A program made the translations under genes and the position numbers. A model generated the notes under the pieces. The model worked only from the letters and a program-made list of their open reading frames with translations. It did not search any database and was not told the DNA's origin. From Desulfatitalea tepidiphila (GTDB lineage: Bacteria; Desulfobacterota; Desulfobacteria; Desulfobacterales; Desulfosarcinaceae), in assembly GCF_001293685.1 (NCBI RefSeq), contig NZ_BCAG01000001.1, forward strand, positions 186,001 to 250,000: a DNA stretch of 64,000 nt, written 5' to 3'. Positions 1-12,563 of this stretch are shown one piece after another. Within the stretch, counting starts at the first letter, position 1. Every line of letters starts with the position of its first letter.

Positions 1-715
1 GGGTCTGCCCAAACAGCACGGTGTCTCGAATGGCGCCCATGGTGCAGAAGCGGCTCCGCTGGGCAAGAAAACCGACGGCCAATCCGACCACCAGCGCCAG
101 CAGCAGCGGCGCATGCATGGCGCCCGGCCCTTTGACACTATAGAACAACACACCGCTGCTGGGCTGGTCCTTGATTTGGGGAAAGACCAGCACCAGAGCC
201 AGGAATCCGATCATGATCAGCGGCAGCATCCAGCCCACGGCGGCGTGGGTCGCCTGGGTGCGGCCCAGGTTGTAGCCCTTTTTGAGAAAGAGGGTGCCGA
301 TCCAGATGCCGAAGGTCAAACCCAACAAACCCAGAATCGCATTGCCGTCTCCGCCGGCCAGGCGCAGCACGGCCCGCCACGGACAACCGAGGAAGACCAG
401 GGCGCCGATCATGGCAAAGACGCCCAGCACGAACCGAACGATGGGTGCCGATCCGACCCGGGGCCGATACTCTCTGAAAAGATAGGCGGCGATCAGCGAA
501 CCGATCACGAAGCCGATGATTTCCGGGCGCATGTACTGCACCACCGCTGCACGGTGCAGGCCTAAGGCACCGGCGATATCGCGTTCGAAACAGGCCACGC
601 AGATGCCCATGTTGCCCGGGTTGCCCAGTTTCTGAAGCAACGGGGCCAGAATGCCGATCACAGCGCCGACGCCGATGATTCCCCATCGCGTCGCAAAAAT
701 GTTTCTCCCCTGCAT
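1..715 (-). CDS. YedE-type (selenium-metabolism-associated) membrane protein, partial
   Basis: The gene reads leftward and runs off the window edge, so only the first ~238 residues are seen. The start is ATG at 715, preceded by AAGGAGG about 8 bases upstream. The translation is strongly hydrophobic with several membrane segments. It contains GNPGNMGICVACFERD near residue 31 and FLGCPWRAVLRLAGGDGNA near residue 93, the conserved Cys motifs of the YeeE/YedE transporter family, in the subgroup often associated with selenium metabolism. Substrate (selenium or sulfur species) is inferred from the family only. It follows the activase gene by ~190 bases and may belong to the same transcription unit. 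An Arg-rich overlapping frame at 138-686 is a shadow of it. Confidence 0.8.
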   Translation of the reverse strand, partial: MQGRNIFATRWGIIGVGAVIGILAPLLQKLGNPGNMGICVACFERDIAGALGLHRAAVVQYMRPEIIGFVIGSLIAAYLFREYRPRVGSAPIVRFVLGVFAMIGALVFLGCPWRAVLRLAGGDGNAILGLLGLTFGIWIGTLFLKKGYNLGRTQATHAAVGWMLPLIMIGFLALVLVFPQIKDQPSSGVLFYSVKGPGAMHAPLLLALVVGLAVGFLAQRSRFCTMGAIRDTVLFGQT

Positions 716-903
716 CAATTCAACCTCCTTTTTTGATGTCCCACTCCGTTTCATCCTGACATATGTAAAGACGGCCTCTTACGATTCAGATGCTTGATTT
801 CTTCTATTGCTCGAAAAAGAGTTTTTGGCTCCCTTTGAAGGTGCCGCTGCATGCGTTCCTGTCTGTCCCGGATTGCCCGAGGGCGCCATCGGTCTTCCAC
901 CGT

Positions 904-1662
904 TTACTGCGACTCCAGAGCCAGCAAGGCCGCACCCAGGGCCCCGGCAAATTGTGAGTGCTCGTGGTAAAGGACGGTTCGGCCCAGTTTCTGCGCCAGC
1001 AGGGCACGCAGGCACGGGTTTTTGGCGACCCCACCGGTAAATACAATATCCCCTGAGGGGGATACCCGTTGGATCATGGCCGCCACCCGGCGCATGACAC
1101 TGGCGTGAAGGCCCAGGGCGATTTGGCGGCGATCTTGACCTTTGGCAATCAGCGAAGTGACCTCCGATTCGGCGAAGACCGTGCACATGCTCGAAATGGT
1201 GATTTCTTTTTCCGCCAGAAGCGCTTCGTCACCGAAAGCATCGATCTCAAAACCCAATGTGCGCGCCATGATCTCAAGGAATTTACCGGTGCCGGCGGCG
1301 CAGCGGTCGTTCATTTCAAATTTTTTCACTTTTCCGTTGTCGAACAAGGCGATGGCCTTGCTGTCCTGGCCGCCGATATCGAGCACGCTGCGAGCTTCGG
1401 GGAAAAGTGTGCGGGCTCCCCGGGCGTGCGCCTTGATCTCGGTCACCGTTGGAGCTTCGAATGCTATTTCCAGAAGATTACGACCGTAACCGGTAGCCAT
1501 GATGCGGTCGCATTCGATGCCATTGAGCAGGCGTTTGGTGTCGCTCATGGGGTCAAAGCCGGTATCGGTCTTCAGGCGATGGGTGATTTCTCCGGTTGAA
1601 TCCACCACCACGAGTTCAATCGTTCGGGAGCCGATGTCGATGCCGGCAAAACGGTCGTTCAT
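904..1662 (-). CDS. Acyl-CoA dehydratase/double-cubane reductase activator ATPase (BadF/BadG/HgdC family)
   Basis: A 252-residue ASKHA-fold ATPase. The N-terminus has FAGIDIGSRTIELVVVD (phosphate-binding loop). DIGGQDSKAI is the second phosphate motif. The Cys residues in DRCAAGTGKFLE and SSMCTVFAESEV are those that hold the intersubunit [4Fe-4S] cluster in HgdC-type archerases. Such proteins are homodimers that use ATP hydrolysis to inject a low-potential electron into a partner. The partner is almost certainly the reductase gene that ends 7 bases upstream (1670-2950). I chose ATG 1662 because the family begins at this residue; an upstream in-frame extension to 1725 lies inside the neighbouring gene. 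The length is normal for the family. Confidence 0.9.
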   Translation of the reverse strand: MNDRFAGIDIGSRTIELVVVDSTGEITHRLKTDTGFDPMSDTKRLLNGIECDRIMATGYGRNLLEIAFEAPTVTEIKAHARGARTLFPEARSVLDIGGQDSKAIALFDNGKVKKFEMNDRCAAGTGKFLEIMARTLGFEIDAFGDEALLAEKEITISSMCTVFAESEVTSLIAKGQDRRQIALGLHASVMRRVAAMIQRVSPSGDIVFTGGVAKNPCLRALLAQKLGRTVLYHEHSQFAGALGAALLALESQ

Positions 1663-1669
1663 CCTTTTG

Positions 1670-2950
1670 CTATCCTTTGATTTGTTCGATGAACGCTTCC
1701 ACGCGCGTCTTGAGCTGCCCGGCATCTTCCATGCTGTAGTCGGTCTCGATGCGCAGGCAGGGGATATTTTTTTTCTCGAGGGCCTTCTCCACGGGTATGG
1801 CTTCCATCAGGTAGGGCTGGCAGAACTGCAAGCCGTAATGGATGACGCCGTCGGCCTTGTAGGCGGCGGCCATCTCTTCGATATGGGCCAGGCGATCGGG
1901 GTTGGGGGTGAAGATGGCGCAATCCACCTGGTAATAGCGATCCACGATGGCGGCCATCATCTCCTCGACCGTTTGGCCCGATGCGTCGGTGAGGTTGCGG
2001 GTGCCCCGTTCGCCCACGCACGACTCCTCTCCCACGATAACGGCGCCCGAAGTCTCCACGATAAAAGGCAGTTTCCAGTTGGGAACAGCCTGGGGACAGC
2101 CGGAGACCAGGATGCGGGGCGTGCCGGCCGGGCAGGTGCCCTTTTTCTCCGCGATGCGGTTTTCCAGCTCGTCGCAGATTTTGTTCACCGATTCTGTGAA
2201 ACGCGCCGGGTTGTCGTAGAAGAAGACCTGGTTGACCAATAGGGCATCCAGGCCGGATACGGGGACAGGATCTGCTTTCCGCAAAGCTGACAATCGGTGT
2301 AAGGCAGCCCGTTTGGCATTGACGGTGCCGATGGCCGCTTTCAAGGATTCAGCCGTGATCTTCACACCGGTGAGCGTTTCCATGGCCGTTTTGAAACGGA
2401 AGTATTCATTTTGGAGCAATGCCCGGCCGTTTTCTGATTTGACTTGGGGCAGGTCCATCACATAGAGGTTGCTCACCAGTTGGCCCAGCGTTTCATAGGC
2501 TTTCTTCTTGCCGTCGCAGGTGTTTTCGCCGACAATCATGTCCGCGCTCTCCAGGTAGGGGCACACCTTACCCAGCTTGAACCCGAACGAAGACTTGATC
2601 AGGGCGCACGTGTTGCGCGGCAGCAATTTTTCCACCTCCTCCATGGCGAAATCGGCACCCGAACAGAGGCCCACCAGGGTGGCGTTGGCCGCCAGTACCA
2701 GCTCCTCTGGGACAAACACGCAATAAGAGCCGACGATTTTGCGTCCGGCAGCCTTTTCATCCATCAACTCCTTGATGCGCAGGCCGTGCACTTCGCTCAT
2801 GACGAAATCGAAGTAGGCCATGCCTTCGGGGCGGTTCTTTTGCGCCAGATAGATCTCCTGGTAGGCACTGCCCAGTACGCCCAGCAGCGCATCGTGGGCT
2901 TCCAGATCGAGGCCCAGTTCGGTCCACATGGAACGGTAATTGTCGCTCAT
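1670..2950 (-). CDS. Double-cubane-cluster-type reductase (HgdB/YjiM-like 2-hydroxyacyl-CoA dehydratase family)
   Basis: A 426-residue HgdB-family protein. It carries many conserved Cys residues: GSYCVF, LCSGADF, NTCALIK, KVCPYLE, ENTCDGKKK, GCPQAVPNW, EESCVGERGT and QFCQPY. A single HgdB-like polypeptide paired with one activase, with no second dehydratase subunit, matches the double-cubane-cluster reductases (E. coli YjiM type). In characterised members an [Fe8S9] double cubane reduces small molecules with ATP-driven electrons. The natural substrate is unknown. The start is ATG 2950 with AGAAAGGAA upstream, rather than an in-frame codon at 2980. The next gene (activase) starts 7 bases downstream, so the two are co-translated. 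A nifB-type gene lies just upstream. Confidence 0.85.
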   Translation of the reverse strand: MSDNYRSMWTELGLDLEAHDALLGVLGSAYQEIYLAQKNRPEGMAYFDFVMSEVHGLRIKELMDEKAAGRKIVGSYCVFVPEELVLAANATLVGLCSGADFAMEEVEKLLPRNTCALIKSSFGFKLGKVCPYLESADMIVGENTCDGKKKAYETLGQLVSNLYVMDLPQVKSENGRALLQNEYFRFKTAMETLTGVKITAESLKAAIGTVNAKRAALHRLSALRKADPVPVSGLDALLVNQVFFYDNPARFTESVNKICDELENRIAEKKGTCPAGTPRILVSGCPQAVPNWKLPFIVETSGAVIVGEESCVGERGTRNLTDASGQTVEEMMAAIVDRYYQVDCAIFTPNPDRLAHIEEMAAAYKADGVIHYGLQFCQPYLMEAIPVEKALEKKNIPCLRIETDYSMEDAGQLKTRVEAFIEQIKG

Positions 2951-2972
2951 GATGATAATTTCCTTTCTGAGT

Positions 2973-2996
2973 ATTCTCATTCAAGCGCATGAGAAT
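2973..2996. promoter_or_regulatory. Inverted repeat ahead of the double-cubane reductase gene
   Basis: ATTCTCAT (2973-2980) and ATGAGAAT (2989-2996) form a perfect 8-base inverted repeat with an 8-base spacer in the 63-base gap between the nifB-type gene and the reductase gene, about 25 bases before the reductase start. It could be an operator or an RNA hairpin. No T-run follows on the minus strand, so a terminator is unlikely. Confidence 0.4.
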
Positions 2997-3013
2997 GAGA
3001 CATGTGAATTCCT

Positions 3014-3865
3014 TCAACACTCGAACCGGATCATATGATCCTCATTCAATTTTCCTGCGGCATCCGACCGGCACCTCTGGCAATGGCGCATTTGCGGCAC
3101 ATATCGGCCGGCCTGCATTTGAAGCCTCTTCATTTGCGATGTGGATGGCGGCGCGGTATTTTCCATGGGTGTTGCGGGCAGGGGAATGAGGGGCAGCAGG
3201 TTCATCAGATCCACGCCCAACCGATGCAAGCGTTTGGCCAGAAAGAGGATATGATGCATGTTCATACCGGGAACCACCACACTGTTGATTTTGACGGTGA
3301 AATGCTTCTCTTTCAACAAAGCAACCGCTTCCATTTGTCGGTCGATCAGCAACTGCGCCGCTTCAACGCCATGCAGCATTTTTCCCCCGAACTGGACCCT
3401 TTGGTATAGAAGTGACCCGATGCCTGGATCGATAGCGTTGATCGTGACCGTGACAAAACGAACGTCAAGCGCCTGAAGGTCGCCGATGACCTCCTTGATC
3501 ATCAAGCCATTGGTTGAGACGCACAAGGCGATATCGGAATGGGCGCGGCGGATGAGCTGGAAAGTACGGAGGGTGAGTTCCGGATCATCAAATGCATCTC
3601 CCGGACCGGCGATGCCGGCCACGGTGATGTACGGCATGTTCGCCAGGGCTATCTCCAAGCGAGTCAGCGCTTCGTCCGGGGTGATTGTCCTGCTGCAGAC
3701 ACCGGGCCGGTTTTCATTGGGGCACGCATGATCGCGCCGGCAATAGACACATTGAATGTTGCACGAAGGTGCCACGGGCAGGTGAATGCGGCCATACCGG
3801 GAATGGTCTTTTGAAAAGAAGCAGGGATGATGAGCCGTGGAGGATCGGGAATTCGGGCGATGCAT
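3014..3865 (-). CDS. nifB: NifB-type radical SAM protein
   Basis: A 283-residue protein with the NifB signature. It has the radical-SAM cluster motif CNIQCVYC near residue 36, then CPNENRPGVCS, the SAM-site motif AGPGDAFDD near residue 86, and a C-terminal HCQRCRSDAAGKL matching the NifB HCxxCRxDAxG motif. It lacks the C-terminal NifX-like domain, so it is the short form of NifB. NifB carbide-inserts and fuses two [4Fe-4S] units into the [Fe8S9C] precursor of nitrogenase cofactor. No nifH/D/K/E/N genes are in the window. Its neighbour is instead a double-cubane reductase. ATG 3865 abuts the TAA of the membrane-ferredoxin gene, indicating one operon. Confidence 0.85.
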   Translation of the reverse strand: MHRPNSRSSTAHHPCFFSKDHSRYGRIHLPVAPSCNIQCVYCRRDHACPNENRPGVCSRTITPDEALTRLEIALANMPYITVAGIAGPGDAFDDPELTLRTFQLIRRAHSDIALCVSTNGLMIKEVIGDLQALDVRFVTVTINAIDPGIGSLLYQRVQFGGKMLHGVEAAQLLIDRQMEAVALLKEKHFTVKINSVVVPGMNMHHILFLAKRLHRLGVDLMNLLPLIPLPATPMENTAPPSTSQMKRLQMQAGRYVPQMRHCQRCRSDAAGKLNEDHMIRFEC

Positions 3866-4672
3866 TTAGCGTCCTTTCGGCAGTCGACCGATCTTGATGG
3901 CATCCTGGGGGCATGCCGAAAGGCAGTCGCAGCAGTTGGTACAGTTGGCTTCCGCTGGTCGCGTACCCATTGGGCAGACTTTGATGCATTTATTGCAATC
4001 ATTGCAGCGATCGGTTTTGAAGACCCCGAAAAGGGCAATGGGCTTTATCCATTCCAGAACCCCGCCCGTTGGGCAGAATAAACGACACCAGGCATTGGCC
4101 ATCAGGAGACCGAAGGCCAAGACACCCAGAACCACAAAAGTGCGTACGAGCCAGATGAGGTTGGCGTGCTCAAAGGTCAAGCGGATGGATTCGAAAAATC
4201 CGCCGACTCGAATCGGCACCACTTCCCGGGGTTGACCTCCCGGCAGCCAGACATAGAGAGCGGCCGCCGATGCGGTCAACAGCAGATAGGGAAACATGCG
4301 GGTAAAGGTGTGCCGGATGCGCAGTTTGAATGGCGCGAGATGCCCCAGCATCTGATTGACCAGGGCTCCCGGGCAGGCCCATCCGCAGAACGCCCTTCCA
4401 AAAATCACCACGGAAAGAGGCAGTAGCAACCAAAATCCCCAAAAGACGGTGAAGAGGCGGCCGTGACACGTAATGACCGGGCAGTTCTGGCAGCTCACGT
4501 AAGGCACGATGAAAGGGCAGCGGAAAATGCCGTAAAAGGACCATTGGCCGATGACGGCCGCGATGGCCGATTGGCACAAACGGCGCCACCAGATGAGACC
4601 CATCCCTGCAAAAGACTTTTTTTCGCCGGCGCTTTTCGGTACGGCGGGTATCGTCCTGGCTGTCTCAAGCAT
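3866..4672 (-). CDS. NapH/NosR-like membrane 4Fe-4S protein
   Basis: A 268-residue polytopic membrane protein. It has about five hydrophobic segments, the CxxCP motifs SCQNCPVITCHG and CGWACPGALVNQ typical of NapH/NosR-type proteins, a further FCPTGG motif, and two C-terminal [4Fe-4S] motifs, CNDCNKCIKVCPMG and CTNCCDCLSACPQD. Such proteins pass electrons between the quinone pool or periplasm and cytoplasmic ferredoxins. It overlaps the upstream ModA-like gene by 8 bases and is followed directly by the nifB-type gene. A role in feeding electrons to this cluster's metalloenzyme is inference from position. Confidence 0.82.
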   Translation of the reverse strand: MLETARTIPAVPKSAGEKKSFAGMGLIWWRRLCQSAIAAVIGQWSFYGIFRCPFIVPYVSCQNCPVITCHGRLFTVFWGFWLLLPLSVVIFGRAFCGWACPGALVNQMLGHLAPFKLRIRHTFTRMFPYLLLTASAAALYVWLPGGQPREVVPIRVGGFFESIRLTFEHANLIWLVRTFVVLGVLAFGLLMANAWCRLFCPTGGVLEWIKPIALFGVFKTDRCNDCNKCIKVCPMGTRPAEANCTNCCDCLSACPQDAIKIGRLPKGR

Positions 4673-5561
4673 CTTTCACTCCCAGGGTCTCGACCAGTTG
4701 ACGGCCTTCGTCGGAGATGGCGGGGATGAATCCGGCCTGTTCAAAAAAGGATTGGCCCTCCTCTGAGAGGATAAAATCCACGTACCGATCTGCCAGGGCA
4801 CGATCCCGGGCCTCTTTCATGACGCCGATGGTAAAAGTGAGCGGCGGCGGGGGAAAGTATTGGGCCGGAATGGGGATGACCTCCGACCGGTCCCTGAAGA
4901 GCGGCATCCGGGTAAGCCGGAATTCTACCACCGACACATCCCCCTTGCCGTCGATCAGCTCTTCCATGGTGCGTTGCACGCAGCTTCCTCGGATCACGGT
5001 GTTATTTATGACCTGATCCATCACCCCGGCTTTTTTCAGCAGACCGATGGCTGCCTGTCCCCCGGGAGGAGAGGCATCCGGCGCGAGAATCACCCTAACG
5101 CCTGGGCGGGCCAGGTCTTTGATATCCGAAATGCCTGCGGGATTACCCCTGGGCGTGACCATGACATAACGGGTAAAGCACAGTGGCTTGAAATAGATCA
5201 TCTTGCCGGCCGAGCGCAGCTTTTTGGCCAGGTCCAGCACCCGGCCGCCAAACACCTCGGTGGTGGCGCTGCCCAGCAGCGATTTGCCCAATGCGGCCGC
5301 GAAAGCCCCGGTATAGGCGATTTCGACCCCCGTCTTCTCCTTGTACCTTGCATTGGCCGGAATGAAGGCCTCGGCCAAACCGCCGCAGGACCATACCTGT
5401 AGTATTGAATGGGCACTTGTTGACGCGGCCGATCCCCTGGCGGGTGTCACCGCGCCCGCCGCTACAGCGGCAGCTCCGGTTAGAAACGCTCTTCGACTCA
5501 GAGTCGCAAGATCGGTTTGGATCATCTTTTCCCTTGCCGTTTCTCTCGCGTTGGCAGGCAT
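4665..5561 (-). CDS. Tat-exported ModA-like substrate-binding protein
   Basis: A 298-residue periplasmic binding protein of the ModA/type II family. It starts with a twin-arginine signal (SRRAFLTGAAAVAAGAV), then LQVWSCGGLAEAFIPANA, the usual first strand of oxyanion-binding proteins, and IPAQYFPPPPLTFTIGV and FILSEEGQSFFEQAGF near the C-terminus. No ABC permease or ATPase is adjacent; the next gene is a membrane ferredoxin. The ligand (molybdate, tungstate or another anion) cannot be told from sequence. The start could be ATG 5561 or ATG 5525, the latter giving a more usual signal-peptide length. It is the first gene of the leftward cluster. Confidence 0.78.
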   Translation of the reverse strand: MPANARETAREKMIQTDLATLSRRAFLTGAAAVAAGAVTPARGSAASTSAHSILQVWSCGGLAEAFIPANARYKEKTGVEIAYTGAFAAALGKSLLGSATTEVFGGRVLDLAKKLRSAGKMIYFKPLCFTRYVMVTPRGNPAGISDIKDLARPGVRVILAPDASPPGGQAAIGLLKKAGVMDQVINNTVIRGSCVQRTMEELIDGKGDVSVVEFRLTRMPLFRDRSEVIPIPAQYFPPPPLTFTIGVMKEARDRALADRYVDFILSEEGQSFFEQAGFIPAISDEGRQLVETLGVKDA

Positions 5562-5698: not shown

Positions 5699-8497
5699 TC
5701 AGGTTATAGCGTAATCCCTATTTGAGGCTTCATTCGTGGGCTCGAGGGCTACTGCGCAAACCTTCAATTCAGGAATATGGCAAACCGGGTCCAGCGCCGC
5801 GTGGGTCAGCCTGTTGGCAGCTGCCGCCGCGAAGTGGAACGGAATAAAAACCACACCTGGTAGGATGTCGTTGGAAACTGAGGCCTTGGCCATGATAACG
5901 CCGCGCCGGGAGCGTATGCGGACCCGCTGGTCGTCGGATATGCCGATCCGGTGGGCATCTTGGATGGAGATTCCCACCTGGCACTCCGGAGCTCGCTCGT
6001 TGAGGCCGTTACTCTTCATGGTCATGGTGCCGGTGTGGTAGTGGTACAACAATCGGCCTGTGGTCAGCGTCAGGGGATAGGCCTCATCTGTCAGTTCGGC
6101 CGGCGGTTGAAACCCCACGGCATGAAAGCGGCCCAAACCCCTCGTGAACTGTCCAGTGTGAAGCACCGGCGTGCCGGGATGATCGAGGTCCGGACAGGGC
6201 CACGTCAGGCTCAAATTTTCGATGCGGTTATAAGAAATGCCTGCATATGAAGGGGTCACACTGCGCATTTCGTCAAAAATGCCTTGGGCATTCTTGTAAG
6301 CCATCGTTACCCCCATGCGGGTGGCAAGGTCGGCGATGATGTCCCAGTCGGAGCGGGCTTGGCCGGGAGCGGCGACGGCGCGGCGAACGCGTTGGACCCT
6401 GCGCTCGGTGTTGGTGAAGGTGCCTTCTTTCTCGGCGAAGCAGGCAGAGGGCAGCACCACGTGCGCCAATTGGGCGGTTTCAGTCAGAAAAATGTCTTGG
6501 ACCACCAGAAAATCGAGTTGCTTCAGGGCGGTTTCGGTATGGTTCAGGTCCGGGTCTGAGAGCATGGGGTTTTCACCGATGATGTAAAGTGCCTTGAGTT
6601 CGCCGTTATGGGCCTTTGGGATCATCTCGGTGGCCGTCCAGCCGGGCCGGGCGGGTAGATCGGTTGCGGCCCAGGCGTTTTCCATTTTTTTCAACACGGC
6701 GACGTCGATCACCGGTTGGTATCCACTGAAGACGTTGGGCAGCCCACCCATGTCACAGGCCCCCTGGACGTTGTTTTGACCCCGCAACGGGTTGACCCCT
6801 CCGCCCGGAATTCCCAGATTACCGGTGAGCATGGCCAGGTTGGCCAGGGATTTGACATTGTCGGTGCCGGTACTGTGCTGGGTGATGCCCATGCAGTAAA
6901 TTATGGCAGCAGGTTTGGATTGGGCGTATAGCCGTGCTGTGCTGACCAGTTCGTCGGCATCGATGCCCGTGATGGCCGCCACGACGTCGGGAGTATATTT
7001 TTCCACCATTTGTGCCAGCGCATCGAAGCCCTCGGTGCGGTTCCGGATAAAGTCTGCATCATGCAGTTTATCTTTGAGGATGATGTGCATCCAACCATTG
7101 ATCCAGGCCACGTCCGTGCCGGGCCGGGGGGTGAGCTTGTGCGCGGCGAAACGCGACAGAGGGATATTCCGGGGGTCGACGACGATCAACCGCGTTCCCC
7201 GGTAGCGTACGGCCCGCTTGATGCGCGACGCGATCACCGGGTGGGTTTCACTGCTGTTGGCGCCAGTCACCAGGATCACTTTGGATTGGTCGAGGTCGGC
7301 GATCGGATTGGTCATGGCGCCGCTGCCGAAACTGGCGGCAAGGCCAGCCACGGTAGAGGCGTGACATAGGCGGGCGCAATGGTCAACGTTATTGGTTTTG
7401 AGAACGGTTCGGGCAAATTTTTGAGCCAGGTAGTTTTCTTCGTTGGTGATCCGGGCGGAGACCAGTACGCCCATGGGGGCGTCGCCATGATCATCGCGGA
7501 TTTGCCTGAACCTGCGGGCTACCAAGTCCAATGCTTCATCCCACGAAGCTTTGCGGAATCGACCATTTTCCTTGATCAATGGATCGGTGAGCCTTTCGGC
7601 GGAGGAAATGAAGTGGTAGCCGAAGCGCCCTTTGACGCACAAACTACCGTGGTTGGGGGGCTCATCCACGCCGGTCACTTTGACTACGCGATTTTCTTTG
7701 ACATGGAGGTGGATCTGGCATCCCACGCCGCAATAGCTGCAAGTGGTGCGAACTTTATGGGTTTCCCATGGCCGCACGGCATAGCGCGCATCTTTTTCAA
7801 CGAGAGCGCCGACGGGGCAGGCTTGAACACATTCGCCACAGAACACGCACTCTGAATCTTTTAAGGGGCGGTCACCGCCGGTGATGATTTTGGCTGCCGG
7901 GCCCCGATAGCCGATGCTGATGGCGTCGTTGCATTGCACTTCGTTACATGCCTGGACACAGCGGCCGCATTGGATACAGCGGGAAAAGTCGCGCACGATG
8001 AAAGGGTTCACGGTCTCCAAGGGATAGCGGGTCGGGCCGGTGCCGAAACATCGACCGGTGACTTGGTACCGGTAGGCAAGATCCTGCAGCCGGCAATCGC
8101 CCCATACCGGGCAAAGGTCAAGACCGCCATCTTCTTCCTGCACCCTGAGCTGAAACGAGGTCCAATCCAGGTTGTCGTTGCAGCGAACGGCGCAGTTGTG
8201 GTTGCCGGAGCCGAGCATCAGCTGAATGATTTCCCGCCGGGCCATAATCACTGCGGATGATTCGGTTTGCACGCGCATGCCGGGGGCGGCCGGTGTGGTA
8301 CAAGCGGTGAGCAGGGTGCGTGCTCCCTCTACTTCGACCACGCAAATTCGGCAGGCACCGGTGGGGGTGACCCCCTTTAGCCAGCACAGGGTGGGGATGT
8401 CGATGCTGTGGCGTCGGGCCACTTCCAATAGCGTTTCACCATTTTCGAAGGGGAGTTGACGGCCGTTAATGAAGAGGGTTTGTGCAGGATTCGTCAT
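5699..8497 (-). CDS. fdhA: Formate dehydrogenase-like molybdopterin oxidoreductase, Cys type
   Basis: A 932-residue catalytic subunit. In order it has an N-terminal [2Fe-2S] ferredoxin domain (Cys near 38, 49, 52 and 66), a NuoG-like cluster region (~100-140), two [4Fe-4S] motifs (CIQCGRCVQAC near 174; CVFCGECVQACPVG near 217), the Mo/W-bisPGD [4Fe-4S] motif CSYCGVGC near 253, and the molybdopterin and dinucleotide-binding domains. The residue that ligates the metal is Cys378 in RLCHAST, not selenocysteine. This is the layout of cytoplasmic NAD- or ferredoxin-linked formate dehydrogenases. ATG 8497 overlaps the stop of the IscA-like gene (ATGA). Other molybdopterin substrates are possible, but position and motif favour formate. 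Confidence 0.88.
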   Translation of the reverse strand: MTNPAQTLFINGRQLPFENGETLLEVARRHSIDIPTLCWLKGVTPTGACRICVVEVEGARTLLTACTTPAAPGMRVQTESSAVIMARREIIQLMLGSGNHNCAVRCNDNLDWTSFQLRVQEEDGGLDLCPVWGDCRLQDLAYRYQVTGRCFGTGPTRYPLETVNPFIVRDFSRCIQCGRCVQACNEVQCNDAISIGYRGPAAKIITGGDRPLKDSECVFCGECVQACPVGALVEKDARYAVRPWETHKVRTTCSYCGVGCQIHLHVKENRVVKVTGVDEPPNHGSLCVKGRFGYHFISSAERLTDPLIKENGRFRKASWDEALDLVARRFRQIRDDHGDAPMGVLVSARITNEENYLAQKFARTVLKTNNVDHCARLCHASTVAGLAASFGSGAMTNPIADLDQSKVILVTGANSSETHPVIASRIKRAVRYRGTRLIVVDPRNIPLSRFAAHKLTPRPGTDVAWINGWMHIILKDKLHDADFIRNRTEGFDALAQMVEKYTPDVVAAITGIDADELVSTARLYAQSKPAAIIYCMGITQHSTGTDNVKSLANLAMLTGNLGIPGGGVNPLRGQNNVQGACDMGGLPNVFSGYQPVIDVAVLKKMENAWAATDLPARPGWTATEMIPKAHNGELKALYIIGENPMLSDPDLNHTETALKQLDFLVVQDIFLTETAQLAHVVLPSACFAEKEGTFTNTERRVQRVRRAVAAPGQARSDWDIIADLATRMGVTMAYKNAQGIFDEMRSVTPSYAGISYNRIENLSLTWPCPDLDHPGTPVLHTGQFTRGLGRFHAVGFQPPAELTDEAYPLTLTTGRLLYHYHTGTMTMKSNGLNERAPECQVGISIQDAHRIGISDDQRVRIRSRRGVIMAKASVSNDILPGVVFIPFHFAAAAANRLTHAALDPVCHIPELKVCAVALEPTNEASNRDYAIT

Positions 8498-8805
8498 GAA
8501 CAGCATCCCTCAGACGAACCGCAACCGCCGCAACCGCATGTCAATTTCAGCGAAGAGGAAACTTTGAAGCCGCTCCCGGCAAAATCGATTTCAATGGGCT
8601 GGGCCTGGTTCAAGAAGGCCGTGTCCACCAGGTATTGAATACCGGAGAATTCGAAGGTGGTATCGTTCGGCTTGGCGTCATCCAGGGCCAGAACAATTTG
8701 CTGTCCGCTGCAACTGCTGGCTAAAAATACCCGGATGGGTTTAAGCGCGTTTTCTTCAAAGTAGCGTGCAATTTGTTCCTGGGCCTTTTCAGTGACATTG
8801 AGCAT
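8494..8805 (-). CDS. IscA/HesB-like iron-sulfur carrier
   Basis: A 103-residue A-type carrier-like protein. SCSGQQIVLALDD holds the first Cys, and the C-terminus is very Cys-rich (TCGCGGCGSSEGCCS), replacing the usual CGCGxSF ending. Such proteins donate Fe-S clusters or iron. ATG 8805 is chosen because CAGGAGA lies 8 bases upstream; ATG 8811 is too close to it. The stop overlaps the formate dehydrogenase start by 4 bases, so it is translationally coupled and may help load that Fe-S-rich enzyme (inference). Confidence 0.78.
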   Translation of the reverse strand: MLNVTEKAQEQIARYFEENALKPIRVFLASSCSGQQIVLALDDAKPNDTTFEFSGIQYLVDTAFLNQAQPIEIDFAGSGFKVSSSLKLTCGCGGCGSSEGCCS

Positions 8806-8822
8806 GAGCATTTCTCCTGTGT

Positions 8823-9329
8823 TTACGATTGAGACGCGCTCACCAGGCCCCTGAAGACCTTCCGGAGGTCGCGTTCGGTTGCGTTGGACAGCGGGTCGAT
8901 ATCTTCGTCCGGGTGAGCAGTTGTTTCGGGATGCGGTGAAGGATCGAGTTCGGCAGGGCATATGCACATCTCATTGCAGCGTTCCCGAATCTGTTCCTCG
9001 GTCAATTCGCGGTTGTTCTCGATCCAGCGGTGGCAATCGTCGTGGGTGCCGACATGCAGCAGGAAAAGCCGGCGGCCGGTTTTGAAGGTGATCAGGCGGT
9101 AGCCAGCGCCCAGGTTGTATTTCATCACCCCTTTGATGCGCAGTTCGCCATGCTTGGTGATCGTGCCGATGCGGTCCGGGACCAGGTGGCCCTGCCGCAT
9201 GCGCTGAATGATCTTTTCGGCCCGTGCGGCAGCCAGGGCCGCCTTTTTGCCCGAACGACGGAGTAGTTCAAGGCTTTTATTGATTCTGGGATCCAGGTGC
9301 ACATGTCTAATCATGGGATCCGTCTCCAT
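8823..9329 (-). CDS. RelE/ParE-fold-like protein of unknown role with Cys-rich C-terminal part
   Basis: About 168 residues from ATG 9329, or 163 from ATG 9314. Residues ~10-105 resemble a RelE/ParE-like fold: a basic helical part, then LGAGYRLITFKTGRRLFLLHVGTHDDCHRW. The C-terminal third is acidic with CNEMCICPAEL. There is no antitoxin partner, and the gene overlaps the end of the short HdrA gene and precedes the IscA-like gene in the same operon. A structural or assembly role is as likely as RNase activity. I do not recognise an established family name. Confidence 0.6.
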   Translation of the reverse strand: METDPMIRHVHLDPRINKSLELLRRSGKKAALAAARAEKIIQRMRQGHLVPDRIGTITKHGELRIKGVMKYNLGAGYRLITFKTGRRLFLLHVGTHDDCHRWIENNRELTEEQIRERCNEMCICPAELDPSPHPETTAHPDEDIDPLSNATERDLRKVFRGLVSASQS

Positions 9330-9723
9330 ATCTCTTCCGGTCCGGAAGGTCGGCGGCCGACACGACCGGGCATGCATCGATACAGGCCCGGCACCCGGTG
9401 CAGCGCTCGATGTCGACGCTGCGCGCTCGCTTTTTCACCACCGCTTTAAATCGGCCCGCTTCACCTGAGAGCGATTCCAAGGTGGCATAGGTGACCAGTT
9501 CGATGTTGGGATGTCGTCCGGCGCTGACCAGGTAGGGAGAGAGAATGCACATGGAACAGTCGATGGTGGGAAAGGTCTTGTCGAGCTGCCCCATCGTGCC
9601 GCCGATCGCCGGCGTTCGCTCGACCAGATAGACAAAGAAGCCGGAATCGGCCAAGTCCATGGCGGCTTGGATGCCGGCGACGCCGCCGCCCACGATCATG
9701 ACGCTGCCGCTGGTCTTTTTCAT
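9307..9723 (-). CDS. Short HdrA-like flavoprotein/ferredoxin
   Basis: Only 138 residues, against roughly 340-1000 for HdrA/QmoA family members. It has the N-terminal FAD-binding motif VGGGVAGIQAAMDLA, the HdrA Cys motif FPTIDCSMCILSPYL, and one [4Fe-4S] motif, CTGCRACIDACPV (~108-120). It then ends with an unrelated hydrophilic tail. The start ATG 9723 overlaps the stop of the MvhD-like gene (ATGA). The rest of HdrA is absent, with no remnant in the next gene, so it is either a decayed HdrA or a deliberately minimal electron relay. Its operon place between MvhD-like and Fdh genes fits Hdr-linked formate oxidation. Confidence 0.75.
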   Translation of the reverse strand: MKKTSGSVMIVGGGVAGIQAAMDLADSGFFVYLVERTPAIGGTMGQLDKTFPTIDCSMCILSPYLVSAGRHPNIELVTYATLESLSGEAGRFKAVVKKRARSVDIERCTGCRACIDACPVVSAADLPDRKRYGDGSHD

Positions 9724-10190
9724 ATCAACGTCGCTCCTGATTGGATCGTTGTGGGGTCTGAATCCGACAATGGCCTTTTGATCATGCTCTTGGCCGGCCC
9801 CAGCGCCAGGACCGAATCGGTCACCTTCTGCGCCGTGGCGGCGAATTTGGTCGATTCGGCCGAAGAGATCCACGAAAAATGCAGCCTGCCCGGCTCCAGG
9901 CCGGAATATTCCAGGAAATTTTTCAATAAGGTGAATTTCCGGCGAGCGTAGAAATTGCCTTCGATATAGTGGCAGTCGCCCGGGTGGCAGCCAGACACCC
10001 ATATGCCGTCGACGCCGTTGCGCAGGGCGGCCAGAATGAACTTGGGGCTGATGCGGCCGCTGCATGGCACCCGGATGACGCGGATGTTGGGCGGGTACTG
10101 CAGGCGGCTGACCCCGGCCAGGTCGGCGGCCCCATAGGTGCACCAGTTGCAAAAAAAGGCGATGATTTTCGGTTCCCATTGTGGCGTCAT
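9720..10190 (-). CDS. MvhD/FlpD-like [2Fe-2S] protein, second copy
   Basis: A 156-residue MvhD-family protein with FFCNWCTYGAADLAG near the N-terminus, VPCSGRISPKF, and SGCHPGDCHYIEGN, the Cys residues that bind the [2Fe-2S] cluster in MvhD. MvhD passes electrons from a hydrogenase or formate dehydrogenase to HdrA. It lies 42 bases after the first MvhD-like gene and is coupled to the short HdrA gene by a 4-base overlap. The C-terminal ~20 residues extend beyond the usual family end. Confidence 0.85.
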   Translation of the reverse strand: MTPQWEPKIIAFFCNWCTYGAADLAGVSRLQYPPNIRVIRVPCSGRISPKFILAALRNGVDGIWVSGCHPGDCHYIEGNFYARRKFTLLKNFLEYSGLEPGRLHFSWISSAESTKFAATAQKVTDSVLALGPAKSMIKRPLSDSDPTTIQSGATLI

Positions 10191-10232
10191 GGCATCACTT
10201 CTCTTGTGTTTCCAAATTCTTTGGGTTAATGG

Positions 10233-10670
10233 CTATGAAGCAATTCGGTCTATTCGTCGAACAGGCGACGGACCGAGCCGGCGAATGGTTTCGGTCATCT
10301 CCGTTGCGATTTCCGCAAAACGCGGCCCCATGGCCGAACTGAGATTGAACATTTGAACCCGCTCGGGTTCTATGTCTGCCTCGGCCAGCAGCTTCCGCAC
10401 CGCGGCAACCCTTTTCCGGGCCTTCAGGTTCCCTTCTAGAAAATGGCATTCGCCCTCTATGCATCCGGCCACGTATACGCCGTCGGCTCCATTTTCGATG
10501 GCCTTGAGCAGATGGCTCATATCCACCCGGCCGGTGCATGGCACCTGAATGATCTTGACATTGGCCGGGTAGGTCAGACGCATGCTCCCGGCCAGATCAC
10601 CGGCCGCATAAGCACAGTACTTGCAGCAAAAGGCCAGAATCTGGGGCTCGAAGAGGTGTTCAGCGGTCAT
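10233..10670 (-). CDS. MvhD/FlpD-like [2Fe-2S] protein, first copy
   Basis: A 145-residue MvhD-family protein with CCKYCAYAAGDLAGS, VPCTGRVDMSH and AGCIEGECHFLEGN. The start ATG 10670 has AAGGAGG five bases upstream; an in-frame extension to 10757 (TTG) overlaps the preceding stop and is less likely. It is the partner of the adjacent HdrD-like and second MvhD-like genes. Two MvhD paralogues in tandem suggest two electron entry points or a heteromeric relay. Confidence 0.87.
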   Translation of the reverse strand: MTAEHLFEPQILAFCCKYCAYAAGDLAGSMRLTYPANVKIIQVPCTGRVDMSHLLKAIENGADGVYVAGCIEGECHFLEGNLKARKRVAAVRKLLAEADIEPERVQMFNLSSAMGPRFAEIATEMTETIRRLGPSPVRRIDRIAS

Positions 10671-10753
10671 GCATGCCTCCTTGCCTGTGGGTTTTTGCAC
10701 CATGGAATCGGCAGAATCTCTTTTCTGCGTTCCGGACCTCATGTTGAATCTAT

Positions 10754-12085
10754 TCAACCAATAAACGGATTGGGTGTTCCCGGTTCCCCGGGCAGCAAGA
10801 CCTCCTTCAGGTCATCGCCTAAATACTCCCGCTCATTTTCGGCCAGGACACCCAGGGCGAGGGCGACAATGCTCCACATGTGGACCGTGTGATAGGTGCC
10901 TCCGAAATGGTCGGCCAGGTCGTGGATCTGGGCGTGGCAGTTGTGGCAGGGTGTTACGCAGTAGTCGGCGCCGGTGGCGATGATCTGGTCGAACTTGATT
11001 TTGCCGTATTGATGGCGCGCTTCGGTATAGCCGGATTGCAGGTAACCACCGCCGCCACCACAGCAGTAGTTGTTGGATCGATTGGGGACCATGTCGACGA
11101 AGTTCTCTTCGCCCACACACGCCTTGAGCACGAAGCGCATTTTTTCGGCCTGTTCGTCCCCGAAGCTTTTGCGGATCTGGTTGCAGGGGTCCTGGACGGT
11201 GAACTTGAGCTTCAGGTCTTTGTTCCAGTCGGCGCTGACCTTCAGCTTTCCCGATGTGATCCATTCATAGTAGTAGGCCACCAGGGGGGCGATTTCCAAT
11301 TCGGTATGGATATTGAATTTCTTGTTGGCCGCCCAGACTGCATAGGTGGAGTGACCGCATTCGGTATTCAAGTAAACTTTGCACCCCAGTTCTTTGGCGC
11401 GTTTGAGTGTATGGGCGGATGTCTTTTCCCAATTTTCGTCATCAGCCAGAAACATGCAGTAATTTTCGCCGCCCCACGCTTCGCAGCTGTAGGTCCAGTC
11501 CGCACCGGCCAGATGAAGAATTTTCCACAGGGGCACCATCTCGTCCGGTTCGGTGACCGGCTCGCGGGAGTTCTGGCTGAGGAAAAAGTGAGCCCCCTGC
11601 TTCTCCAACGGCGCTTCGAGTGTTTCCCATCCAGGTTGCGTGCCGCGAACCTCGTCGAGCACATCCTCGACCACGAAGCGGAAATCTTCGGGGGGCGTTC
11701 CCATGGCGCTGCAGCTGTCATTGCGCAAGGCCATGTCGCAGGAGGCCAGGATGCCCTTTGGGCGCTCGTCGCGGGGCCACAATTTGCGGGCCTCATAGAC
11801 CAGACCCGGGATGTTGATGGCCATGGGGCAGACATGCATGCAGCGGCTGCACATGGAACACATCCAGACCCAGGGGTGTTTGGTGATCTCATCGTCCATG
11901 CCAAGCATGACCATGCGCAGGAATTTGCGCGGGTCCATGCCTTCCAGGCCGGTGGCCGGGCAGCCCGATGCACAGGCGCCGCAGGTGAGGCACAGGTTGA
12001 GATTTTCACCTCTGGGGATGAGGTGCCGGACCTTGTCGAGAAATCGTTCCTTGTTGGGGCCTTTCAACACGATGGCTTGGGTCAT
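10754..12085 (-). CDS. HdrD/TmcB-like iron-sulfur (CCG-domain) protein
   Basis: A 443-residue protein. It has two [4Fe-4S] motifs at the N-terminus (CLTCGACASGCPA near 32; CSMCSRCMHVCPM near 76), and C-terminal CCG-type Cys motifs (DPCNQI, NNYCCGGGGGY, CVTPCHNCH) that in HdrB/HdrD bind the noncubane cluster reducing disulfides. It resembles HdrD and TmcB of sulfate reducers. ATG 12085 follows GAAAGGAG. It is the first gene of the leftward Hdr/MvhD/Fdh operon; a 15-base palindrome lies ~100 bases upstream. The electron acceptor (a thiol-disulfide such as DsrC, or a membrane partner) is not evident. Confidence 0.85.
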   Translation of the reverse strand: MTQAIVLKGPNKERFLDKVRHLIPRGENLNLCLTCGACASGCPATGLEGMDPRKFLRMVMLGMDDEITKHPWVWMCSMCSRCMHVCPMAINIPGLVYEARKLWPRDERPKGILASCDMALRNDSCSAMGTPPEDFRFVVEDVLDEVRGTQPGWETLEAPLEKQGAHFFLSQNSREPVTEPDEMVPLWKILHLAGADWTYSCEAWGGENYCMFLADDENWEKTSAHTLKRAKELGCKVYLNTECGHSTYAVWAANKKFNIHTELEIAPLVAYYYEWITSGKLKVSADWNKDLKLKFTVQDPCNQIRKSFGDEQAEKMRFVLKACVGEENFVDMVPNRSNNYCCGGGGGYLQSGYTEARHQYGKIKFDQIIATGADYCVTPCHNCHAQIHDLADHFGGTYHTVHMWSIVALALGVLAENEREYLGDDLKEVLLPGEPGTPNPFIG

Positions 12086-12185
12086 GCCGGAACTCCTTTC
12101 CGCGCATGCGGCGCGATAGGTTTTCAGGAATCGCCGCCGGCTCGGCCCGGACCCGGGTCAAGACCTCTTTACAAGGCATATCCAA

Positions 12186-12200
12186 GTACCTGGCAGGTAC
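12186..12200. promoter_or_regulatory. Perfect palindrome upstream of the Hdr/MvhD/Fdh operon
   Basis: GTACCTG-G-CAGGTAC lies about 100 bases before the start of the HdrD-like gene. Its size and symmetry fit a dimeric repressor or activator site. Confidence 0.4.
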
Positions 12201-12563
12201 CCGTCGAGGTTGTGATGTGTGCTGTGCCGAATTCAATATTCGGCGGAGGGGCACCGACGGTTGGTCCCTATGCCTGCGCACGCCAGCCCGGGCTGCGATC
12301 AGCGGCTTGCTCAGGTAAAACCAGTGTGTCGGTGTGGAAGGAGCATGTGGATTTTTCCAGATTAACGGTAACCGAATTTCCTGCGCCATGTCCTTCCTGT
12401 TTTTGGATGGGCATCAGGCAGGCGTTACCTCTAAAAGGGCTGAAACAAAAAGTCAAAGCGATATATTCAATGCCAGGGGGTCTACTGGATTAGTATTTTC
12501 AATTTATGCCATCTGCTTTTTTAATCCGTCTTGTTGGGTCGCCGACAGCAATTCTAACTGAAT

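Follow-up and report, generated by a model that had tools for sequence, protein, structure and literature searches.

A ModA-like three-cysteine protein and a NapH-like polyferredoxin form a gene pair associated with NifB in Desulfobacterota

The window analysed in this study is a stretch of 64 kb from the genome of Desulfatitalea tepidiphila (contig NZ_BCAG01000001.1, positions 186,001 to 250,000). Its left 5.6 kb holds six genes, all on the minus strand, and an original prediction had proposed that the NifB-type enzyme encoded there may serve a neighbouring double-cubane reductase. The constant unit in Desulfobacterota is, however, a pair of genes for a ModA-like solute-binding protein and a NapH-like membrane polyferredoxin, rather than the adjacency of nifB and the reductase gene. 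This pair is referred to here as the module. Its gene order and sequence conservation, its co-occurrence with NifB and its presence in genomes where no nitrogenase genes were detected are direct observations. The best explanation that we can offer, to which we give slightly less than an even chance, is that the ModA-like protein would carry a NifB-dependent 8Fe cluster, be exported by the twin-arginine (Tat) pathway and be wired by the NapH-like protein.

The ModA-NapH pair and its association with NifB

The module and the adjoining nifB of the window are encoded as follows.

4665..5561, minus strand: ModA-like protein of 298 amino acids with a solute-binding fold (PF13531 match), a Tat signal and three invariant cysteines
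3866..4672, minus strand: NapH-like membrane polyferredoxin of 268 amino acids with two CX3CP and two C-terminal 4Fe-4S motifs
3014..3865, minus strand: NifB, a single-domain paralog of 283 amino acids (TIGR01290 match, matches to solved NifBs, ligand residues)

The family names and the leftward orientation of all six genes were confirmed, and so was their tight spacing. The NapH-like and ModA-like genes overlap by 8 nucleotides (nt), nifB abuts the NapH-like gene, and 33 nt separate nifB from the gene for the double-cubane-cluster protein (DCCP); the gap between the latter and the activase gene is 7 nt if an internal ATG at 1662 serves as activase start. The ModA-like protein reaches 155 bits with SBP_bac_11 (PF13531, cut-off 25). 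Several more specific models stay under their curated cut-offs: TIGR01256 for ModA (35.7 of 62.5 bits), TIGR02163 and NF007013 for NapH (43.9 of 213 and 44.7 of 234 bits), and TIGR01290 for NifB (293 of 343.65 bits, model positions 7-284 of 441).

NifB relatives were sought in 97 relatives and in 395 genomes drawn from the phylum, while an alignment of ModA-like proteins (A1) was used to search the same 395 phylum genomes and 389 class genomes. The best six candidates per genome were scored in the NifB and ModA searches, and the best four in the DCCP search described below. There were 11 NifB matches with E <1e-86, including that of the window, and nine of these have the ModA-like and NapH-like genes adjoining; the remaining two (G356, G092; G and L numbers denote genomes and loci) adjoin nitrogenase-family-like genes. 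Three divergent NifB loci (G075, G226, G381) have the same two partners in another order. The order ModA-NapH-NifB was found again in other families of Desulfobacterota, which is beyond chance. The named genome collection contained one relative, Desulfatitalea sp. UBA4791 (G007), whose NifB is 97% identical.

The ModA search gave 16 matches at E <1e-100 in the phylum sample, plus four weak ones, and 18 at E <1e-60 in the class sample. The union of the two samples amounts to 32 genomes with the module. The ModA-like and NapH-like genes are adjacent in 31 of the 32 loci, those of G026 reading as a single fused frame where the contig ends; in the 32nd (G085) the contig ends just after the ModA-like gene. 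Of 30 measurable loci, 23 have an overlap of exactly 8 nt between the two genes; in the others, with the longest open reading frame (ORF) counted as the gene, it is 11-110 nt. A nifB gene is part of the locus in 18 of 32 cases, counting G615, where the contig ends inside nifB, and was not seen there in 13; G085, with its cut contig, is in neither count. In a tree of the ModA-like proteins, loci with and without nifB are intermingled, and nifB has therefore been gained or lost more than once in module loci.

NifB is present in all 16 ModA-positive genomes of the phylum sample, which represent 11 families, as compared to 109 of the 395 genomes overall (Fisher 5e-10, uncorrected for relatedness). 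The corresponding number for the class sample is 17 of 18. This figure combines 13 of 15 genomes in a dedicated check, three (G000, G007, G089) from the earlier NifB search, and G615, which was added with a C-terminal part of NifB at a contig end. Over the union of both samples, 31 of the 32 module genomes have NifB.

Nitrogenase-family genes were scored by a PF00148 search of all 32 module genomes, and canonical-type matches occur in 21 of them. No PF00148 match was found in G089, G298, G498, G630, G007, G085 and G615, and only sub-threshold matches in G291 and G342. G226 and G381 have one nitrogenase-like PF00148 pair each (E ~1e-60) and were scored as lacking canonical nif genes. Completeness is 93% or more in five of the genomes without PF00148 matches over cut-off (G089, G291, G298, G342, G498), and in each of these nifB is inside the module. 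Altogether, nifB is part of the module in eight of eight genomes without canonical nif genes, as opposed to 8 of 21 with them (p=0.003, uncorrected for relatedness). The group of eight includes G630 (89% complete) and omits G007 (73%), G085 (80%) and G615 (88%), of which G007 and G615 would add two more cases of nifB in the module. The 13 genomes without nifB in the module all have nitrogenase-family genes and a nifB elsewhere. This pattern is as expected if the ModA-NapH pair needs NifB and can borrow that of the nif regulon.

Sequence features of NifB and of the module proteins

The D. tepidiphila genome has a separate nif cluster (C5:134-141 kb) consisting of five PF00148 pieces (134-140 kb) followed by its own nifB, and the nifB of the window is therefore a second paralog. 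The two NifB proteins are 45% identical. No PF00148 match (NifDKEN-type) occurs on the contig of the window. The two findings that the original prediction had named as refuting it do not cleanly apply: the genome does have nif genes, but the nifB of the window is not its sole copy, and the neighbours do not vary at random. Within the nif cluster, the gene at the nifK position lies in two overlapping frames (L007, G000:C5:125000-144999, ~10853-12233), which is either a real frameshift or an assembly error.

The phylogeny of NifB, which had been called for, was computed as a quick tree. Module NifBs fall into two lineages (support 92 for ten rows and 95 for six), plus a loosely placed G291, and all of these stand apart from a group of 48 rows that contains the nif-cluster NifB of D. 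tepidiphila; the L054 row labelled 'other' duplicates the module sequence of G291. As the window NifB is a second paralog, and as module NifBs occur in near-complete genomes without PF00148 matches over cut-off, it probably serves something other than nitrogenase. To this extent the original prediction of a role outside nitrogenase has held up. A further NifB lineage (38-44% identical to that of the window, support 96) was seen in five loci (L083, L084, L085, L087 and L090, from G426, G349, G308, G329 and G238), which by appearance also contain nitrogenase-like, NifH-like and ABC-transporter genes.

3740..3763, minus strand: radical SAM motif CNIQCVYC of NifB (C35, C39, C42), the three cysteines being invariant in the NifB alignment A3

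The family profile of NifB matches the solved NifBs 6y1x, 7bi7, 7jmb and 7jma. In MaNifB, cluster K1 is bound by C30, C63, C129 and H43, and K2 by C264, C274 and C277 (PMC7145814). The window protein has C15, H28, C35, C39, C42, C48, C115, C262 and C265. Placed by spacing, C15, C48, C115 and H28 are the K1 equivalents, and C262 and C265 are kept from K2, the third K2 position being occupied by alanine, as also in the nif-cluster NifB of the same genome. The window NifB may make NifB-co. It shares the radical SAM motif, the cluster ligands apart from the third of K2, and the solved NifBs as best matches with the NifB of nitrogenase clusters, but it is a single-domain protein, belongs to a separate lineage and adjoins modA and napH.

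Alternatively, module NifB could be a radical SAM enzyme repurposed for modifying the ModA-like or the NapH-like protein, with no 8Fe cluster being made. This would fit with the 45% identity to the nif-cluster NifB, the score under the TIGR01290 cut-off and the loss of a K1 cysteine column in clade B. The idea seems quite improbable to us, however, because the window protein retains the radical SAM motif, K1 including its histidine and two of the K2 ligands, and because those genomes whose module has no nifB of its own possess nif genes together with a nifB at another place.

The ModA-like protein has four invariant features.

5481..5498, minus strand: twin-arginine motif SRRAFL, residues 22-27; RR is invariant in 30 of 30 full-length rows
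5385..5387, minus strand: codon of Cys59 (WSCGGL), kept in 30 of 30 readable rows; G in four of four weak relatives
5178..5180, minus strand: codon of Cys128 (PLCFT), kept in 31 of 31; V, V, T and A in the four weak relatives
4980..4982, minus strand: codon of Cys194 (GSCVQ), kept in 31 of 31; T in four of four weak relatives

The 30 full-length rows exclude G007, where ModA is truncated, and G026, where the contig ends inside ModA. The four weak relatives (G168, G261, G360, G454; E 1e-22 to 1e-28) served as controls and were excluded from the module count; in the alignment, none of the three cysteines is found in any of them. According to Pfam, ABC transporter genes adjoin three of the four, while the fourth (G261, on a 5-kb contig) has an Alginate_exp porin and no ABC gene. 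Beside the ModA-like gene of the module, by contrast, no recurring ABC permease or ATPase partner was seen in ORF surveys done mostly by eye and by BLAST between loci. A tblastn search of plasmids with the ModA-like protein gave seven records with 25-31% identity, six of them annotated modA, and a scan of viral contigs found no relative.

When the protein is aligned to solved solute-binding proteins (SBPs), Gly61 falls on a serine of the molybdate SBP 4kd5. The serine after the first strand of ModA is what we take to be an oxyanion-binding residue. C59 lies two residues before this position, and C194 is aligned with the residue preceding a valine of 4kd5. The 4kd5 stretches around both are presumably ligand-binding loops of ModA. 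At least two of the three cysteines probably face the cleft, judging from this alignment. The ModA-like protein thus shares a fold-level sequence match with the SBPs ModA and PEB3, but in terms of its sequence it is unlike a molybdate-binding protein: it scores under the ModA cut-off, lacks an ABC partner in the module, has three cysteines and a Tat signal, and has lost the ligand serine.

These data bear on an uptake function. The original prediction had envisaged the import of an oxyanion metal, and in a broader version the ModA-like protein would scavenge Mo, W, thiomolybdate or dissolved FeS for cofactor synthesis, with the NapH-like protein reducing or releasing the ligand. The solute-binding fold is in line with this, as is the requirement of NifB for iron and sulfide. 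In addition, a gene for an Alginate_exp-type outer-membrane porin borders the module in G226, G381, G337 and G470 (L091, L092, L119, L120), as called by Pfam for three of these genomes and by 52% identity for the fourth. The occurrence of such a porin next to the cysteine-less relative in G261 implies that this neighbour is not specific to the three-cysteine protein. The import of an oxyanion metal is not supported, as no ABC permease or ATPase was seen in the module and as glycine replaces the ligand serine. The ABC genes beside three of four weak relatives and the persistence of the module in genomes without nitrogenase matches also speak against scavenging. Tat export, moreover, is unusual for an ordinary SBP. 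We regard metal scavenging as unlikely.

The NapH-like protein keeps the two CX3CP motifs and the two C-terminal 4Fe-4S motifs of its family and has one additional feature.

4466..4519, minus strand: extra four-cysteine loop C52-x8-C61-x2-C64-x4-C69, present in 31 of 31 readable module NapHs

Among 30 NapH-like loci fetched from four module genomes, this loop is confined to the module copies; one non-module NapH-like ORF (G089) has a similar but different four-cysteine loop. A hydropathy scan flags only residues 71-100 and 169-200, the loop preceding the first of these. We infer an additional membrane segment before the loop and an extracytoplasmic position of the loop.

NapH-like proteins are described as modular carriers that deliver electrons to reductases, or take them from oxidases, outside the cytoplasm (PMC8238504; PMC5928378). 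The module NapH has the two CX3CP motifs and an exported partner in common with NapH/NosR/PceC-type proteins acting with exported oxidoreductases, and its C-terminal 4Fe-4S sites resemble those of NapH and NosR (PMC5928378). It differs in scoring under the NapH cut-offs, in the extra four-cysteine loop, in its three-cysteine partner of ModA fold and in having no FMN domain match in a Pfam scan. Electron transfer by this protein, as originally predicted, is plausible; the partner that accompanies it constantly, however, is the ModA-like protein.

The double-cubane protein and other variable neighbours

The remaining three of the six genes follow downstream of nifB.

1670..2980, minus strand: DCCP (NF040772; 7yyl/6eno), a variable neighbour of the module
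904..1725, minus strand, start probably at 1662: HgdC-type ATP-dependent activase (TIGR00241, 228 bits), a variable neighbour
1..754, minus strand: YedE-type putative selenium transporter (TIGR04112, 321 bits), 376 amino acids in full, running out of the window

With 473 bits for NF040772 (double_cubane, cut-off 350) and a match of 464 bits to 7yyl/6eno over residues 15-435, the window DCCP is by its sequence a true member of the family, and it may carry [Fe8S9]. The activase exceeds the cut-off of the acyl-CoA dehydratase activase model (125 bits), and among solved structures it matches best to chain E of 7yyl, an entry that combines this activase with a DCCP chain. The two proteins thus match the 6eno/7yyl double-cubane protein and its activase over nearly their full length, but this system is only a variable neighbour of the module here.

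The DCCP gene adjoins five of the 32 modules (G000, G007, G089, G291 and, on the other strand, G342) and lies ~5 kb off in G226. At E 1e-90, DCCP was detected in 133 of the 395 phylum genomes, 132 of these being over cut-off. It occurs in 14 of 16 ModA-positive genomes, in 47 of 93 other NifB-positive genomes (p=0.005, uncorrected) and in 72 of 286 NifB-negative ones. The 16 ModA-positive genomes are those of the 32 module genomes in which DCCP was tested, and at this threshold it was not detected in two of them (G303, G381). Production of BzdN in E. coli MC4100 has yielded the [8Fe-9S] double cubane, which consists of two sulfide-bridged cubanes (PMC11971306). An E. coli genome used as a control has a DCCP itself. 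E. coli is not known to have nifB.

The association between DCCP and the module is thus real but partial, and DCCP is independent of NifB. The core of the original prediction was that the double-cubane reductase next to NifB might receive what NifB makes, or else some related 8Fe cluster. The five adjoining loci and the enrichment in ModA-positive genomes speak for it, but with the two module genomes where DCCP was not detected, and with 72 of 133 DCCP genomes lacking NifB, we now give it very little credence. As the main link, delivery from NifB to DCCP is rejected in view of the DCCP survey and of the double cubane made in E. coli. A second setting in which DCCP-type and NifB-type genes share a neighbourhood was noticed in L079:46-8706 (G023, from the family of the window). 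On one strand, this run encodes a distant DCCP/HGD-D-like protein (34% identical to that of the window), an activase, two nitrogenase-like proteins, one NifH-type protein and a NifB-like protein that is very divergent (33%); two further ORFs are interspersed. The names are based on BLAST clustering and reading.

The YedE protein, partial in the window, is well over the seleno_YedE cut-off of 200 bits. Beyond the window, it is followed by a TusA/YedF-like stretch (found by tblastn only) and by a Se/S-carrier protein (PF11823). The same set stands beside the module in two families (L006:12835-14755, L076:3865-5826), and in L069 and L091 a second DCCP is followed by a TusA/YedF-type gene, which Pfam identifies in L069 as TusA plus DsrE. 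A selenium role of the module was considered and rejected, since the set is near three of 32 modules and a YedF-type gene in two more, which is too few. DCCP, activase and selenium genes are optional neighbours of the module.

Upstream of the module and on the same strand, window positions 5699-12085 encode a formate dehydrogenase of the cysteine type and a member of the HesB/IscA-Se family, together with what by reading are HdrA/MvhD-like genes. Formate dehydrogenase and HdrA- or MvhD/FlpD-like genes were also seen close to the module in L071, L118 and L120. The start of the HesB frame overlaps with an ORF at 8823-9377, whose match to a ParE-like toxin domain is weak, at 21.9 of 24.4 bits. 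In the metagenome-assembled genome of UBA4791 (G007; L039, L068), the formate dehydrogenase gene and modA are both shortened and juxtaposed and the DCCP frame is split, either by an assembly error or by a deletion with frameshift.

A candidate exported acceptor of a NifB-made cluster

What we infer for the module with respect to cluster identity, three-cysteine binding, topology, direction of electron flow and catalysis would be the following. An 8Fe cluster of the NifB-co/L-cluster type would be made by NifB, whether by that of the module or by one recruited from the nif regulon, and the ModA-like protein would bind this cluster through its three cysteines while still in the cytoplasm. The folded holoprotein would then be exported by the Tat system. 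The NapH-like protein would shuttle electrons between the exported protein and the side of the quinone or of cytoplasmic ferredoxin, perhaps using its extra four-cysteine site, and together the two would function in the periplasm as a reductase or as an electron relay. A narrower claim appears possible to us, though clearly short of probable: in Desulfobacterota, the ModA-like protein would be a NapH-wired periplasmic redox enzyme and the first protein to carry a NifB-made [8Fe-9S-C]-type cluster outside the cytoplasm.

There are precedents for several of these steps. NifB-co is carried by a histidine of NifX and handed to a cysteine of NifE (PMC13128457), and most Tat substrates of E. coli bind redox cofactors (PMC3712460). 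Outside the Nif family, clusters that match [8Fe-9S-C] are found in McrC/Mmp7 of the MCR activation complex, ligated by Cys/Cys or His/His, although according to the authors spectroscopic proof of the carbide is needed (PMC12176620). The likeness to the module lies in [8Fe-9S-C]-like clusters outside nitrogenase, with cysteine ligands at one site, and in NifB being retained in organisms without nitrogenase (PMC12176620). That complex, however, is archaeal, ATP-driven and built from other proteins, while the module combines a membrane polyferredoxin with a Tat-exported protein of solute-binding fold. General Pfam and NCBIfam scans of the window proteins gave no match to McrC or Mmp7; no search aimed at them was made.

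Another explanation is that the three cysteines hold an ordinary [4Fe-4S] cluster or a single-metal site in a NapH-coupled periplasmic redox protein, and that the link to NifB reflects a strictly anaerobic, low-potential lifestyle or an indirect dependency. Three cysteines suffice for such a site, the statistics were computed without correction for phylogeny, and NapH-like partners are common for periplasmic oxidoreductases (PMC8238504). It would leave unexplained why dedicated nifB paralogs from at least two lineages are found in the module, and why this is the case in eight of eight counted genomes without canonical nif genes. We consider this explanation to be somewhat unlikely.

Several points weigh against a NifB-dependent cluster in the exported protein. 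A [4Fe-4S] cluster or a single metal ion would suit the three cysteines just as well, and their placing depends on the alignment to solved SBPs, a single-sequence AlphaFold model having a pLDDT of 37. In NifB, the K1 cysteine column (C48) is not kept in three clade B rows of A3. The first membrane segment of the NapH-like protein is not flagged by hydropathy, and the membrane side of its four-cysteine loop is deduced. No nifB stands alongside 13 of the 32 modules, within the stretches fetched (L119 and L157 being short contigs), and one module genome, G085 (80% complete), has no NifB match. The Alginate_exp porin adjoining the cysteine-less relative in G261 (L127) would fit uptake. Finally, the survey covers one phylum, Desulfobacterota, and the p-values ignore the relatedness of the genomes.

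The module appears to be new as a system, although each of its parts comes from a known superfamily. Within the open-licence literature, as judged from titles and the openings of abstracts, no ModA-NapH-NifB module and no exported NifB-dependent protein is described. The product of NifB is among the most elaborate metal clusters in biology, and the same literature describes one user of it beyond the nitrogenase family, in methanogens. A module with NifB in genomes where no nitrogenase was detected names a specific candidate acceptor, so that other uses of the cluster become testable with two or three genes. Our results suggest a use of the cluster outside the cytoplasm that has not yet been described. 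If the acceptor is periplasmic, such a cluster would have to be exported by the Tat system, for which that literature, taken to the same depth, gave no description. If the proposal holds true, the module would add a third setting for the [8Fe-9S-C] cofactor to those of the nitrogenase family and the MCR activation complex, and this on a solute-binding fold. The results also imply that nitrogen fixation should not be deduced from the presence of nifB, or of more than one nifB, alone.

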